From: Afipia sp. 64-13
GTDB taxonomy: Bacteria > Pseudomonadota > Alphaproteobacteria > Rhizobiales > Xanthobacteraceae
Length of the DNA stretch: 39,474 bases
NCBI GenBank assembly: GCA_001897755.1
Contig: MKUJ01000017.1
Coordinates: 25,392 to 64,865, forward strand
Direction of reading: 5' to 3'
Each line of letters starts with the position of its first letter. The stretch's first letter is position 1. The notes under the pieces are model-generated. The model made no database searches and had not been told where the DNA came from. It saw only the letters and a program-made list of their open reading frames with translations. The translations under genes and the position numbers were made by a program. Positions 27,304 to 31,867 of the stretch are shown here, piece after piece.

Positions 27304-29622
27304 CTAGTCTGCCCCGAACACGCTCTTGGGCAGGATGGCGTGCACCGCCCAGTTGCCGTCCACCACCTGCGAGACGCCGAAATCGACCGCCACCGAAATC
27401 AGGGTGATCGCCTCGTCCTCGGACAGGCCGCGCGTCGCCATCAAGAAGCGGCGGATCTTCCGGAAGGCGTCCTTCATCGCCAGGTCGAGCGACGAGGAAC
27501 GGTAGACCTCGCTCTGAGCCTTCTCGCCAAGCTCGGCGAGATAGTCGGGATGGCTGAATCCGAACAGGATCCATTCGGTCCCGGTCTCGATCAGCGGATA
27601 GGCCAGATCGACCAGCGGGCTTCCCGCGAGACGGTCCTTCTTGTGCAGAACGATGTCGAACACGCCGGTCAGCGAGCATTCGATCGCGGTGCCGTCGAGT
27701 TCGGAATCGCCCTGCGTCGCATGCGGGTCGCCGACCGAAATCAACGCGCCCGGCACCGAGACCGGCAGGAAGATCTTCGCGCCTTTCGCCAGCCGCCAAT
27801 TGTCGAGATTGCCGCCGAAATAGGCCGGCGGCACCGAATCGATCAGTCCCGCCTCGCGCGGCGCGCAGCCGATCACGCCGAAATGCGGCCGCAGCGGAAT
27901 GCTGACGCCATCGAGAATGTCGTTCACCCGGGTGACGGTGGCGTGATCGACCGGAATGCCCGGATAATCGATGGTCGGATGCACCTGACCGAACGGATCG
28001 GTCTGCGGCGTCCAGCGGAAACTGTAGAGCGCCCTGGCGAAGGGCGGCGCGGCATCGAACATGCACTCGTAGATCGTCACGACCTCGCGCTGTTTCGGCT
28101 CGGTCATCAGTTCCTGATAATGCAGGCCCCACCACGCCGCGGCGTTGGAGCCGAAGCAGCGCCCGGCAAACTCCGGACTGGCGCTGCGCCGGGGAATAAT
28201 GTCGCGAATGCCGATCTCGACCACGTCGCCGGGCATCGCGCCGATCACCGCGATCGGACCGGTCATGATATGGACGCCGAAGCCCTCGCCCGCGCCGCGC
28301 CCGTAGATCGACGCATCCATCGGGCCCGCACCGCGCCGATCCACGGCCTTTTCGTCCTTGGTCCAGTGGAACACGGCTTCGGCGCCGGGATCGCCCGCGA
28401 TCATCTTCTCATGATCGTCGGAGGCGTGTTGGGTCAGCGTCTCGATCGTCACCGTGTCGCCGGAGTTGATCACCGCGACCGGCGGCAGGTTCTGGCTGAA
28501 ATAACCCCAGTGCACGGTCTTGTCGTTGGCCGGGATGTAATGGGTCTGACTTCCTCCCTCCACCGCGGCCGAGCCATCGGAGGCCAGCAGCGGCGGCGCT
28601 TCCACCGGACTGCTTTCCGATGCGCGTGGCGGGCGGCCGCGATGCTGGGCTTCCACCGCGCTGTTCTCGATCTTGCGGATATTGAGACGGTAGTCGCGCG
28701 GCGACATGCCGTATTTGTCGCGAAACACCCGGCTGAAATGCGCGGCGTCGGTAAATCCCCAGCGGAAGGCGATGCTGGAGACCGACGTGGAATCGTCATC
28801 GGGCTTGGCGAGTTCGCCGCGGCAGCGCTCGAGACGCCGCTCGCGGATGTAGCGCGTGAAGTTTCCGTTCGCCGACTCGAACAGCTTCTGCAGATATCGC
28901 GGCGAGACGCGCTGCGCCTTCGCTACTTCGGCAAGGCTGAGATTGCTGTCGCCGAGCCGCGTCTCGATGAACTGGCAGATGCGATGCAGGATCGCCGCCT
29001 GACTCGACGAGGTGCCGCCGGTGTCGCTGCGCTGGTTGAGCGTGGCGACGATCAGATCCGAAATGGCGATCTCGATGGCGGACAGCTCGTCGTCGTCCAG
29101 TTCCTGCAACGAATCCGACACCGAGCGAAGAAGCTGCGACAGCACGTGACCGAGCCCGCTGTCGCCCGCGATTGGCAGAACCCGAAACGCCTGCGGCGGC
29201 AACATCCGCCGGCTGAACGCGATGCTCGGCAGGCGAAGCCAGACCTGACGGAACGATCCGTCGCAGACCAGATCGAAATCCACCCCGGCCGGAAAGATGG
29301 CGAAATCGCCGACCGCGAGTGCGTGCGCCTGCTGATCGTTCTGCAGCAGCGCCTTGCCTTCGAGATGCAGCACGACCAGCATCGCGCCGTCGTCCTGCCC
29401 CAGCGAACGGAAGCGCTGTGATCTTGCGGATACAATGGAAAACGATCCGCCAAGCGGCGACAGACGGTGATGGGAATGGGCGCGCAGATCCTCCTGGCCG
29501 GATTCCGCGCTCAGGCCGGCGCGCTCGATCGCCGCGCGCCATGCGGTTTCGCGCAAGGTGGACGGATAGTCATCACTCGCGAAGTGCCATGACTGCACGG
29601 CGTCTTTCCCCATCGGCCGCAT
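27304..29622 (-). CDS. AraC-family regulator fused to an acetamidase/formamidase domain
   Basis: This single 772-residue frame has no internal stop. Residues about 40-195 resemble the AraC-binding-2 sensor/dimerisation domain (FSIVSARSQRF, LVVLHLEGKA, VGDFAIFPAG). Residues about 208-316 form a complete AraC DNA-binding domain: first helix-turn-helix LSLAEVAKAQRVSPRYLQKL, then SSIAFRWGFTDAAHFSRVFR and GMSPRDYR. A serine/proline linker (about 317-360) leads to a full FmdA/AmdA amidase domain (361-772) with GVHIMTGPI, PHFGVIGCAP, GGNLDNW and the core GDPHATQGDSE (D632, H634, D639, E641). ATG 29622 is chosen because a TTG twelve bases upstream overlaps the predicted -10; ATG 29613 is also possible. 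It probably regulates the amide operon next to it; whether the amidase part is catalytic or a sensor is unknown. Confidence 0.92.
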   Translation of the reverse strand: MRPMGKDAVQSWHFASDDYPSTLRETAWRAAIERAGLSAESGQEDLRAHSHHRLSPLGGSFSIVSARSQRFRSLGQDDGAMLVVLHLEGKALLQNDQQAHALAVGDFAIFPAGVDFDLVCDGSFRQVWLRLPSIAFSRRMLPPQAFRVLPIAGDSGLGHVLSQLLRSVSDSLQELDDDELSAIEIAISDLIVATLNQRSDTGGTSSSQAAILHRICQFIETRLGDSNLSLAEVAKAQRVSPRYLQKLFESANGNFTRYIRERRLERCRGELAKPDDDSTSVSSIAFRWGFTDAAHFSRVFRDKYGMSPRDYRLNIRKIENSAVEAQHRGRPPRASESSPVEAPPLLASDGSAAVEGGSQTHYIPANDKTVHWGYFSQNLPPVAVINSGDTVTIETLTQHASDDHEKMIAGDPGAEAVFHWTKDEKAVDRRGAGPMDASIYGRGAGEGFGVHIMTGPIAVIGAMPGDVVEIGIRDIIPRRSASPEFAGRCFGSNAAAWWGLHYQELMTEPKQREVVTIYECMFDAAPPFARALYSFRWTPQTDPFGQVHPTIDYPGIPVDHATVTRVNDILDGVSIPLRPHFGVIGCAPREAGLIDSVPPAYFGGNLDNWRLAKGAKIFLPVSVPGALISVGDPHATQGDSELDGTAIECSLTGVFDIVLHKKDRLAGSPLVDLAYPLIETGTEWILFGFSHPDYLAELGEKAQSEVYRSSSLDLAMKDAFRKIRRFLMATRGLSEDEAITLISVAVDFGVSQVVDGNWAVHAILPKSVFGAD

Positions 29623-29765: not shown

Positions 29766-30821
29766 TTACGGTCGGCGCAGATCGCGTCGCACCGCCATGT
29801 GCGCGCCCTTCACGCCGTCCACCACCTGGGTGACGCGCAGGTCGCCCGCGATAGAGCAGATCGAGTAGGCTTCCTCGCGCGAGATGCCCCATTTGCGCTG
29901 AAGCAGGCCGATGGTTTCCAGCACGCACTCGCGCACCGCCTCGTCGAGGTCTTCGCTGAAGCCGTGACAAATCCACTCGCGGGGGGTCTCCAGCACCGGG
30001 TTCTTGCCGGCGCTGCCCTTGTGCAGGATGAGCTGGATAGTGGCGTTGACATGCGCCTCGATGGCGGTGCCGTTCACCTCGCCGTCGCCTTCGGCGAAGT
30101 GGGTGTCGCCCGCCCAGAACAACGCACCCTCGCGGTGCACCGGATAGAACATGCTGGTGCCGGCGATGAACTCGCGGTTGTCGACGTTGCCGCCATGCAC
30201 GCCCGGAGGCACGGTGCTGATCTTGCCGTCGGCCGCCGGACACACGCCCGCGGTGCCGAAATGCAGGCGCAGCGGCACCACGACGTTCTCCAGCGCCGGC
30301 TTGCGCTTCTTCGGATCGGGCGGCGTGATCATGCCGGGATACGGCTTCTCCGGCGTGTCGTATTCATAGGTGAACACGGCGCGGGCGAGCTGCGATTCAA
30401 CGTCGGCTTCGTAAATGAAGACGTGTTCCTTCTTGCCGAATTCTTCATGCAGCAAGCCCCAGCTCGCGATGAAGTTGACGCCGTACTTGATGCGCGGCTC
30501 CATGTGCAGCACGCGGCATTCCAGCGTGTCGCCGAGCTCGGCGCCCTCGACATAGATCGGGCCGGTCAGGATGTGCACGCCGGGGGTGCGGCTCTCCGGC
30601 GGCACCTTCTCGTAAATCTCGCGGATCGCATCGTCCATCAGCAAGTCGGGCGCGTCGCCGGCATGGTGGGCAAGGCACTCGATGTTGACGATATCGCCGG
30701 AATTGACGTGCAGAACCGGATCGATTGCACCGTCAAACGCACCCCACTGAATGGTTTCCAGCGTCGCCTTCAGCTCGTGAAGCTGCGGCGCGGTTCTATC
30801 CTTGGTCACGGTCTTGAGCAT
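29766..30821 (-). CDS. fmdA: Acetamidase/formamidase family protein
   Basis: This stand-alone FmdA/AmdA amidase of 351 residues is expected to hydrolyse a small aliphatic amide such as formamide or acetamide to the acid and ammonia. Family elements are VNSGDIVNIE (39-48), GVHILTGPI (81-89), LRLHFGTAGVCPA, GGNVDN (210-215) and the core AGDTHFAEGDGEVNGTAIE (D239, H241, D246, E248). It is shorter than the roughly 410-residue fused copy and only moderately similar to it. AAGGAG lies 9 nt before the ATG. It sits 19 bp after the second XapX gene, so it belongs to the xapX-xapX-fmdA operon. Exact substrate cannot be read from sequence; the symbol is by family. Confidence 0.9.
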   Translation of the reverse strand: MLKTVTKDRTAPQLHELKATLETIQWGAFDGAIDPVLHVNSGDIVNIECLAHHAGDAPDLLMDDAIREIYEKVPPESRTPGVHILTGPIYVEGAELGDTLECRVLHMEPRIKYGVNFIASWGLLHEEFGKKEHVFIYEADVESQLARAVFTYEYDTPEKPYPGMITPPDPKKRKPALENVVVPLRLHFGTAGVCPAADGKISTVPPGVHGGNVDNREFIAGTSMFYPVHREGALFWAGDTHFAEGDGEVNGTAIEAHVNATIQLILHKGSAGKNPVLETPREWICHGFSEDLDEAVRECVLETIGLLQRKWGISREEAYSICSIAGDLRVTQVVDGVKGAHMAVRRDLRRP

Positions 30822-30840: not shown

Positions 30841-31035
30841 TCAGAATACGAAAGTCAGTTGGTGGCGCATCGCGGCGACAGCGACCAAACCGATGAAGGT
30901 GCCGATAATGGCGAAGATGCCGCCGAGCACGTTCGGCGCCGGGATCGGCGCATTCACCGCCGTGTAGAGAACTCCGGTGACGAGACCGACGATGGAAGCC
31001 TGCAACTCAACGAGGCCAAGGCTGATCTGAAGCAT
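30841..31035 (-). CDS. XapX (DUF1427) small membrane protein, copy 2
   Basis: This 64-residue protein has two predicted membrane helices around the XapX signature GLVTGVLYTAVNAPIPAPNV. The second half, LGGIFAIIGTFIGLVAVAA, is the second helix. Only a few residues protrude, so it must work as an oligomer or with a partner. The start at 31035 has GGGAGA about 7 nt upstream. It is 25 bp from the preceding paralogue and 19 bp from fmdA. XapX proteins are uncharacterised; a role in amide or ammonia passage is inferred only from the operon. Confidence 0.85.
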   Translation of the reverse strand: MLQISLGLVELQASIVGLVTGVLYTAVNAPIPAPNVLGGIFAIIGTFIGLVAVAAMRHQLTFVF

Positions 31036-31060
31036 GTGTTTTCTCCCGAATTTTCGATGG

Positions 31061-31285
31061 TTAGATTTCGGCCCGCGCGGAGCGAGAGTTCGGCCGCCCG
31101 AAGGTGATCTGCTTGCGGACAAGCTTGACGATCACGTAGCCGGCGAAGGTGAAGATGATCGCGAGAATGCCGCCGAGCACGTTCGGCGCCGGGATCGGCA
31201 GGTTCAGCAGCGAGTACAGGAATCCGGTGACAAGCCCGACGACAAGGGCAACGAGCTCGTTACGGCCGACGTAAAGATATTCCAT
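31061..31285 (-). CDS. XapX (DUF1427) small membrane protein, copy 1
   Basis: This 74-residue paralogue of the next gene shares GLVTG-LY--LN-PIPAPNVLGGI with it almost residue for residue. The two DNA copies are nearly identical over that stretch (around 30928-30957 and 31168-31197). There are two membrane helices, with a basic C-terminal tail (KLVRKQITFGRPNSRSARAE) absent from copy 2. GAGGAGGA lies 5 nt before the ATG at 31285, a very strong ribosome-binding site. It is the first full gene of the xapX-xapX-fmdA operon. Function unknown. Confidence 0.86.
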   Translation of the reverse strand: MEYLYVGRNELVALVVGLVTGFLYSLLNLPIPAPNVLGGILAIIFTFAGYVIVKLVRKQITFGRPNSRSARAEI

Positions 31286-31349
31286 GTGTTTCCTCCTCAT
31301 TGACACGGGTTGAATGCGTCTTCACTTGCGCCGGACAAACGTCTCCCTG

Positions 31350-31459: not shown

Positions 31460-31492
31460 TTAGGTGCGATCAATCACGATTGTTTGGGTCAT
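31460..31492 (-). CDS. Putative leader peptide of the XapX-amidase operon
   Basis: This is a 10-codon frame, MTQTIVIDRT, ending in TAA. It is notable because GGAGGA lies 4 nt before its ATG, as strong a ribosome-binding site as any in the window. It lies in the predicted 5' leader of the xapX-xapX-fmdA mRNA, 174 nt before xapX. It is too short to match any family. Regulation by its translation is plausible, but it could also be chance. Confidence 0.45.
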   Translation of the reverse strand: MTQTIVIDRT

Positions 31493-31605: not shown

Positions 31606-31867
31606 GAAAATAAACTCGTGATTTCAATATTCTGCCGGGAAGAAAAACGCGCGCGCGGTGCGATAGACGGCGCGTGCGTGTGCATATGGTCAAGTTTTTC
31701 GGCGCGTGCGGTCAACGGCCGAAGCCGGATCAACACACGCGAACGCCGGTTCCGGCGCGTTATCGCCGCCGAAAGGCTACAGAGTCGTTCGAAACCGGAT
31801 CGCCACAGGAAAATTCGACGAGGGGAAAGAGAAAGAAAGAGACACGCGGACGCGCGCCTCTCTCCAT

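Follow-up and report, generated by a model that had tools for sequence, protein, structure and literature searches.

An AraC-type regulator joined to an FmdA-type amidase domain, and its recurrence beside separate amidase genes

Our analysis found that one gene of Afipia sp. 64-13 encodes, in a single polypeptide, an AraC-type regulator and a full-length amidase domain of the FmdA_AmdA family. This design, with a switch and an amidase in one protein, is present in many soil and plant-associated bacteria, and most of the loci that we compared also have a separate gene for an amidase of the same family. Both halves belong to known families, and no description of their combination was found in the open-licence literature, subscription journals lying largely outside that search. 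On balance, we consider it somewhat probable that the fusion regulates amide use locally and that its FmdA domain binds, and perhaps hydrolyses, the inducing amide. The evidence comes from the window (the whole stretch of 39,474 bases that was analysed), from samples of related genomes and from public sequence records.

The fused gene, its spread and its origin

The fusion occupies one uninterrupted frame of 772 codons, as the initial annotation of this DNA had described it without naming a strand; the frame lies on the minus strand, from an ATG at 29622 to a stop ending at 27304 (Table 1). The true start is probably the GTG at 29598, giving a protein of 764 residues, because three copies of the genus align from this GTG, behind a purine-rich site, and the ATG at 29622 is unconserved. 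A stop or sequencing error between residues 316 and 361 had been named as a possible weak point, and the frame is unbroken there.

The sensor-like N-domain, the two-HTH AraC domain and, after a linker, the full-length FmdA/AmdA domain, at first recognised from the letters alone, were recovered by Pfam and phmmer. AraC_binding_2 scores 46.9 bits (cut-off 27), HTH_18 74.1 bits (cut-off 33.6) and HTH_AraC 45.1 bits, also above its cut-off, so that the protein has the two-HTH DNA-binding domain of the AraC/XylS family. The FmdA_AmdA domain (PF03069) is matched in two stretches, the better at residues 596-769 with 96.6 bits (cut-off 27), and is thus full-length and above the gathering score; the same half aligns nearly end to end with PDB entry 3b9t (phmmer, E 5.5e-180). 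Its core motif, from G631 to E641, is kept as had been claimed. The protein falls below the curated cut-offs of two equivalogs, the FmdA formamidase (NF045496, 54 bits, cut-off 500) and FeaR (NF007243, 145.8 bits, cut-off 199). The AlphaFold model has a mean pLDDT of 77.9, with low confidence at the linker, and a pTM of 0.54, too low to read domain contacts from it. Its best fold match in the PDB is 3b9t, over 417 columns of the amidase part at 60% identity, and the first match outside the amidase family is the AraC regulator CuxR (5nla).

Table 1. Features of the window around the fused gene, in window coordinates
Feature	Position	Strand	Basis or remark
Fusion gene: AraC_binding_2, AraC HTH, linker, FmdA_AmdA	27304..29622	-	ORF, Pfam
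AraC_binding_2 N-terminal domain, residues 40-195	29038..29505	-	Pfam
HTH_18, two-helix-turn-helix DNA-binding domain, residues 234-312	28687..28923	-	Pfam
Linker, residues 316-357	28552..28677	-	Low model confidence at 321-356
FmdA_AmdA domain, residues 358-769; nearest PDB entry 3b9t	27316..28551	-	Pfam, phmmer, fold match
Core motif GDPHATQGDSE inside the amidase domain, residues 631-641	27700..27732	-	Translation, alignment
Separate amidase of the FmdA_AmdA family, 351 aa, standing alone as the next gene upstream of the fusion	29766..30821	-	ORF, Pfam
XapX-like small ORF, 64 aa, 60% identical to its neighbour	30841..31035	-	No Pfam match of its own
XapX/DUF1427-like small ORF, 74 aa	31061..31285	-	Pfam 23.2 bits, below cut-off of 27.1
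Predicted operator TCAAGTTTTTCGGCGCGTGCGGTCAACG, promoter region of the XapX-XapX-amidase operon	31690..31717	+	Matrix, pattern

The same frame is open at full length and without a stop in five of the 29 genomes of the genus, its own included (identities of 100, 95, 91, 53 and 53%), which excludes a chance frame. In the family, a single match spans both halves in at least 101 of 391 sampled genomes. Some matches in this sample are irregular: two have one internal stop each (G138, G267), one is partial in the amidase (G244) and three start at position 90-105 (G241, G311, G277). In a related genus, g23, no fewer than 15 genomes carry two different fused genes each (e.g. G274, G213, G159), as does one genome of another genus. 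Outside the family the fusion is rare. The phylum sample has it in eight of 398 genomes, of which one lies outside the family, and the class sample in four of 385, of which two do, the genome studied here being counted in both.

Among public records, one ORF spans both halves at each of the best 80 of 506 relatives, which are hence fused by selection. Among the sources of these named loci are Afipia, Bradyrhizobium, Tardiphaga, Rhodopseudomonas, Caballeronia, Paraburkholderia, Parvibaculum, Pseudomonas and Paraglaciecola, and they span the Alpha-, Beta- and Gammaproteobacteria. Plasmids carry the fusion too: in 15 of 17 matching records, an unbroken match covers 80% of the query or more. Where these records annotate the gene, some call it an amidase and others an AraC regulator, and since only one half is given the double nature of the protein is easily missed.

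Long antisense frames do occur in this high-GC DNA, which would agree with a sequencing or assembly artefact or with two genes joined by chance in a single strain. But the same joint is found in many separate assemblies and genera, and both halves are under purifying selection; we give such an artefact practically no credence, and the multi-genome survey led us to reject it together with a frameshift. Nor is the fusion limited to this genome with a broken amidase fold, an outcome that the initial annotation had allowed for. The Pfam search and the survey of genomes and neighbours that it had proposed gave the predicted domains, over their cut-offs, and an architecture that recurs beside separate FmdA genes.

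A FastTree phylogeny of 39 non-redundant amidase domains places all 19 fused ones in one clade (support 0.88), which is joined (0.92) to a clade of Tat-exported amidases (0.93). The sole further member of the fused clade, L161, looked unfused but is a fusion as well: its regulator half lies upstream, and only a run of N in the assembly breaks the linker. These groupings indicate that the fusion arose once, from the lineage to which the Tat-exported amidases also belong, and make those amidases, by sequence, the closest stand-alone relatives of the fused domain. One of them is encoded elsewhere in this genome (L002); it is 61% identical to the fused domain and has an RRSFLKSSF signal. Since the fused domain groups with exported enzymes, a domain of the exported branch would now reside in a cytoplasmic regulator.

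Neighbouring amidase genes and a predicted operator

In the window, two XapX/DUF1427-like ORFs, a separate amidase and the fusion follow one another on the same strand. The adjoining amidase had been assigned to the same family as the fused domain, rightly so, and is 39% identical to it. A separate FmdA gene lies within the fetched stretch at 75 of the 80 named loci: at 68 it is at most 300 bp from the fusion or overlaps its longest ORF, at six more it is less than 3 kb away (74 in total within 3 kb) and at one it is farther. At least some of the five remaining loci are at contig ends, and a few of the separate FmdA genes are distant relatives, with 28-30% identity (e.g. L068, L088). Five of the 17 plasmid records were inspected, all of which have a separate amidase gene within 5 kb; one of these plasmid fusions adjoins nitrile hydratase genes.

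The commonest layout has SBP_bac_3, ABC permease/ATPase, cytoplasmic amidase, fusion and RidA in succession; by sequence clusters, the permease/ATPase is found at 57 loci, the amidase at 54 and RidA at 28. In a second layout, which the window shares with Caballeronia, Paraglaciecola and others, the gene immediately upstream of the fusion encodes a more distantly related FmdA protein. The third pairs the fusion with a Tat-exported amidase gene that runs divergently from it (L151-L154, G582). In one genome of the genus (G014, loci L009/L066) the fusion comes directly after a lipoamide dehydrogenase gene, with neither the XapX-amidase operon nor an adjacent amidase. This copy is still under purifying selection, and the genome keeps an operator-like site before its Tat-exported amidase.

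The tandem XapX-like ORFs (30841-31285, minus strand) have the stretch PIPAPNVLGGI in common, and the pair might be an amide channel. At the loci searched (L066 onward), such genes were confined to this genome and Afipia birgiae; with these two occurrences, we rejected them as a general partner of the fusion. The open-licence literature yielded nothing useful on XapX or on FeaR sites. In the leader of the XapX-amidase operon, a mini-ORF of ten codons (MTQTIVIDRT, 31460-31492, minus strand) lies behind a GGAGGA-type site and is possibly a leader peptide; Afipia birgiae has a GTG-started version with TQTIVID.

Aligned promoter sites gave a candidate operator in which CAAG recurs in direct orientation after 22 bp (CAAG-N18-CAAG) and which has TTTGTGCG inside it. 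Direct repeats with a 22-bp spacing suit AraC proteins. The first pattern was drawn from 44 related promoters of ABC-amidase operons in the Bradyrhizobium group, which have a block with TTTTTGTRC in common, and from divergent loci inspected by eye. Searching the 80 loci with TTTTGTRC-N9-CAA gave 39 sites, spread over 38 of them, where ten shuffles averaged 0.7 (0-3); most of these sites are akin to one another and to the training set. In 16 further loci it gave six sites, against none in shuffles. A matrix of 11 sites had its top place in the expected promoter at 17 of 32 test loci, where 2.9 were expected; this set excludes eight loci with or close to training sites and includes near relatives of each other. 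A candidate for the two-part site of an AraC/XylS regulator is thus this 22-bp repeat upstream of many amidase genes, with 15 of the 32 test loci missed, four of them in unindexed promoters (judged afterwards) and 11 as true misses.

The top matrix place among the 39,474 bases of the window (score 18.7) is the site in Table 1, in a promoter that had not been counted as a target beforehand. It deviates from the core at two positions (TTTTTCGGC instead of TTTTTGTGC), and at L082 and L085 higher-scoring places (19.5 and 19.9) lie outside the expected promoters. With a longer matrix it ranks second, after a place at 31346 in the same leader, and first in L073 (Afipia birgiae).

The operator-like repeat goes with the presence of the fusion. 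Upstream of Tat-exported amidase genes, the matrix scored 20.0-32.6 at seven loci with the fusion next door, of which five (L151, L153, L154, L196, L129) belong to the training set and two (L152, L161) do not. It scored 12.3, 12.6 and 15.5 in three genomes with the fusion elsewhere (L002, L036, L162), which supplied no training sites and two of which (L002, L036) are near-identical. All 23 genomes in which searches that mostly scored two candidates per genome had found no fusion stayed at 10.1 or below, a small gap from the weakest positive; some of these genomes are incomplete, and one (G028) was also in the genus search.

A pattern built on this genome's own pair of sites, one before the XapX-amidase operon and one upstream of the Tat-exported amidase (G000, C3:13802-13827), was then searched with up to three mismatches allowed. 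It matched both amidase promoters and a single three-mismatch place in 3.6 Mb, while the reversed control had no match in the same 3.6 Mb. The two exact matches are true by construction, and it is therefore the absence of others, with the matches in two further genomes, that carries information. G001, which has the XapX operon and in which the genus search found no Tat-exported relative, has its sole match in the XapX promoter. G014 has its sole match in the Tat-amidase promoter, and one for the reversed control as well; the two genomes are close relatives, which limits the weight of both matches. The earlier proposal that one copy serves catalysis and the other control fits the separate FmdA gene at 75 of 80 loci and the operator-like repeat before many of them.

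Conservation and the possible role of the amidase half

Within the fusion, conservation is highest in the FmdA half. Over 2145 pairs from 66 loci with both genes, mean identity is 81% for the fused amidase, 71% for the HTH, 51% for the N-domain and 42% for the linker, against 87% for the separate amidase. Among 191 distant pairs the fused amidase stands at 76% and the separate one at 72%, but this subset was picked by low identity of the separate amidase, which favours the fusion, and the all-pairs figures are the fair ones. AraC_binding_2 is the fastest-evolving structured domain, and only ten of the 187 columns of the N-domain are at least 90% conserved in 96 fusions. Values of dN/dS against two relatives (comparison set: window, L066 and L073) were 0.045/0.083 for the N-domain, 0.069/0.051 for the HTH, 0.235/0.107 for the linker and 0.084/0.076 for the fused amidase domain; the structured domains thus span 0.045-0.084, and the separate amidase has 0.064. 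Within the otherwise unconserved linker, RG[WLR]P is kept in 95 of 96 fusions, as RGRP in the window (residues 328-331, 28630-28641, minus strand). Reading this motif as an AT-hook was rejected: 61 of the 96 have RGWP, 20 RGLP, 14 RGRP and one none.

Single residues were compared at 61 columns that are at least 90% constant in three groups of stand-alone proteins (13, 87 and 18 sequences), which omit the distant FmdA-like rows (L068, L069, L070, L088), rows shorter than 300 residues and those whose group was uncertain (L158 and two of L161). Fourteen of these columns, all polar, are kept in 119-120 of 120 fusions, sequences that are not all distinct (19 are left at an 82% identity cut). They are D402, H451, D466, E469, N605, D607, D632, H634, D639, E641, E648, Q752, D755 and H761, the invariant polar residues, candidate catalytic ones, of the FmdA_AmdA family. 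D389 (110 of 120) and R471 (106 of 120) are looser. Specific to the fusions are L619 in place of Y (120 of 120), Q398 in place of H (112 of 120) and A, T or S in place of G at 585 (106 of 120), where the window protein keeps G; the latter deviates from the constants at G471, S751 and A759. By itself L619 is no sign of lost activity, because 2f4l also has L there.

From what the sequences show, namely the joint itself, its single origin and conservation, the nearby separate amidases and the operator-like repeat, we infer the following mechanism. The two-HTH AraC domain would bind the CAAG-N18-CAAG repeat at the promoters of the separate FmdA-type amidase and of uptake genes, and the FmdA domain, now cytoplasmic, would serve as the ligand-binding sensor module. 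This role is suggested mainly by a contrast in conservation, the fused domain being almost as constrained as the separate enzyme and the classical sensor domain much less so, a pattern that agrees with the initial idea of an enzyme fold acting as a sensor or as a catalyst that removes the inducer. An amide in the old active site would switch the AraC part to activation, rather than repression. Slow hydrolysis of the bound amide, possible because the invariant residues are kept, may then let the fusion reset itself. We advance only tentatively, and with some doubt, the fuller version of a self-erasing switch, in which the operator-bound fusion would activate while the amide is bound, hydrolyse it and turn off. 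If true, the turnover rate of the built-in enzyme would determine how long the switch stays on.

Several observations count against this mechanism. The fused amidase keeps its candidate catalytic residues and may be no more than a second enzyme; over all pairs its conservation is slightly lower than that of the separate one (81% vs 87%); and AraC_binding_2 is still present and could be the sensor. The operator misses, the deviations of the window site, the reversed-control match and the lack of an adjacent amidase in G014, and the rarity outside the family also speak against it. The fusion might instead be bifunctional, an active amidase coupled to a regulator whose N-terminal AraC_binding_2 domain does the sensing, an arrangement that would hold enzyme and switch in a fixed ratio. 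The 14 polar residues, a dN/dS of the amidase domain (0.076-0.084) like that of the separate enzyme and an N-domain that Pfam still recognises would all agree with this. Yet a second enzyme would be redundant at the 75 of 80 loci with a separate amidase, few columns of the N-domain are conserved, and L619 and Q398 are changes at otherwise constant positions; we find such a tethered enzyme unlikely.

FmdA proteins form oligomers. Together with candidate sites that are 22-bp direct repeats, this could suit an FmdA domain that is mainly an oligomerisation or scaffold module, pairing AraC parts on the repeats with no role for a ligand. A scaffold, however, has no need of the strict polar core (D632, H634, D639, E641, E648 and others), and we hold this to be quite improbable. 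Slightly more improbable still is that AraC_binding_2 is the sole sensor and the FmdA domain a passenger, at most degrading some cytoplasmic amide. FeaR-type regulators do sense through their N-terminal AraC_binding_2 domain, and the regulator half resembles FeaR, if below the cut-off (145.8 of 199 bits), but the N-domain is the least conserved part of the fusion apart from the linker.

Significance and relation to known systems

The fusion represents a widespread type of regulator, without a name in the literature searched, with a predicted operator and predicted targets, namely genes for FmdA amidases that come with an ABC importer or carry a Tat signal. It also offers a clean system for studying how an enzyme fold may become a sensor, in which the fused domain and its exported and cytoplasmic relatives can be compared side by side.

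Each half has close counterparts. The protein of 3b9t, from Methylobacillus flagellatus and named 'Twin-arginine translocation pathway signal protein', matches the fused domain over nearly its full length at 60% identity. Unlike the stand-alone FmdA_AmdA proteins, the fused domain is joined to an AraC regulator, and where its stand-alone relatives have Y and H it has L619 and mostly Q398. FeaR and other AraC_binding_2 regulators have the N-domain and the two-HTH domain in the same order as the fusion; unlike FeaR, the fusion stays below the curated cut-off and continues for about 440 further residues with the enzyme domain. CuxR and AraC structures of the ToxT/Rns type match the regulator half only, by fold or by sequence, and none of these matches is listed as an amidase fusion.

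DNA binding is joined to a metabolite-binding or catalytic fold in PutA, in Ada and in AraC proteins with GATase1-like or substrate-binding-protein domains, such as Btr; to our knowledge, none of these uses an FmdA domain. Enzymes that regulate the genes of their own pathway are called trigger enzymes, on which the open-licence literature gave general papers only, and they combine catalysis and DNA binding in one protein. With both activities putative, the architecture of the fusion fits this class.
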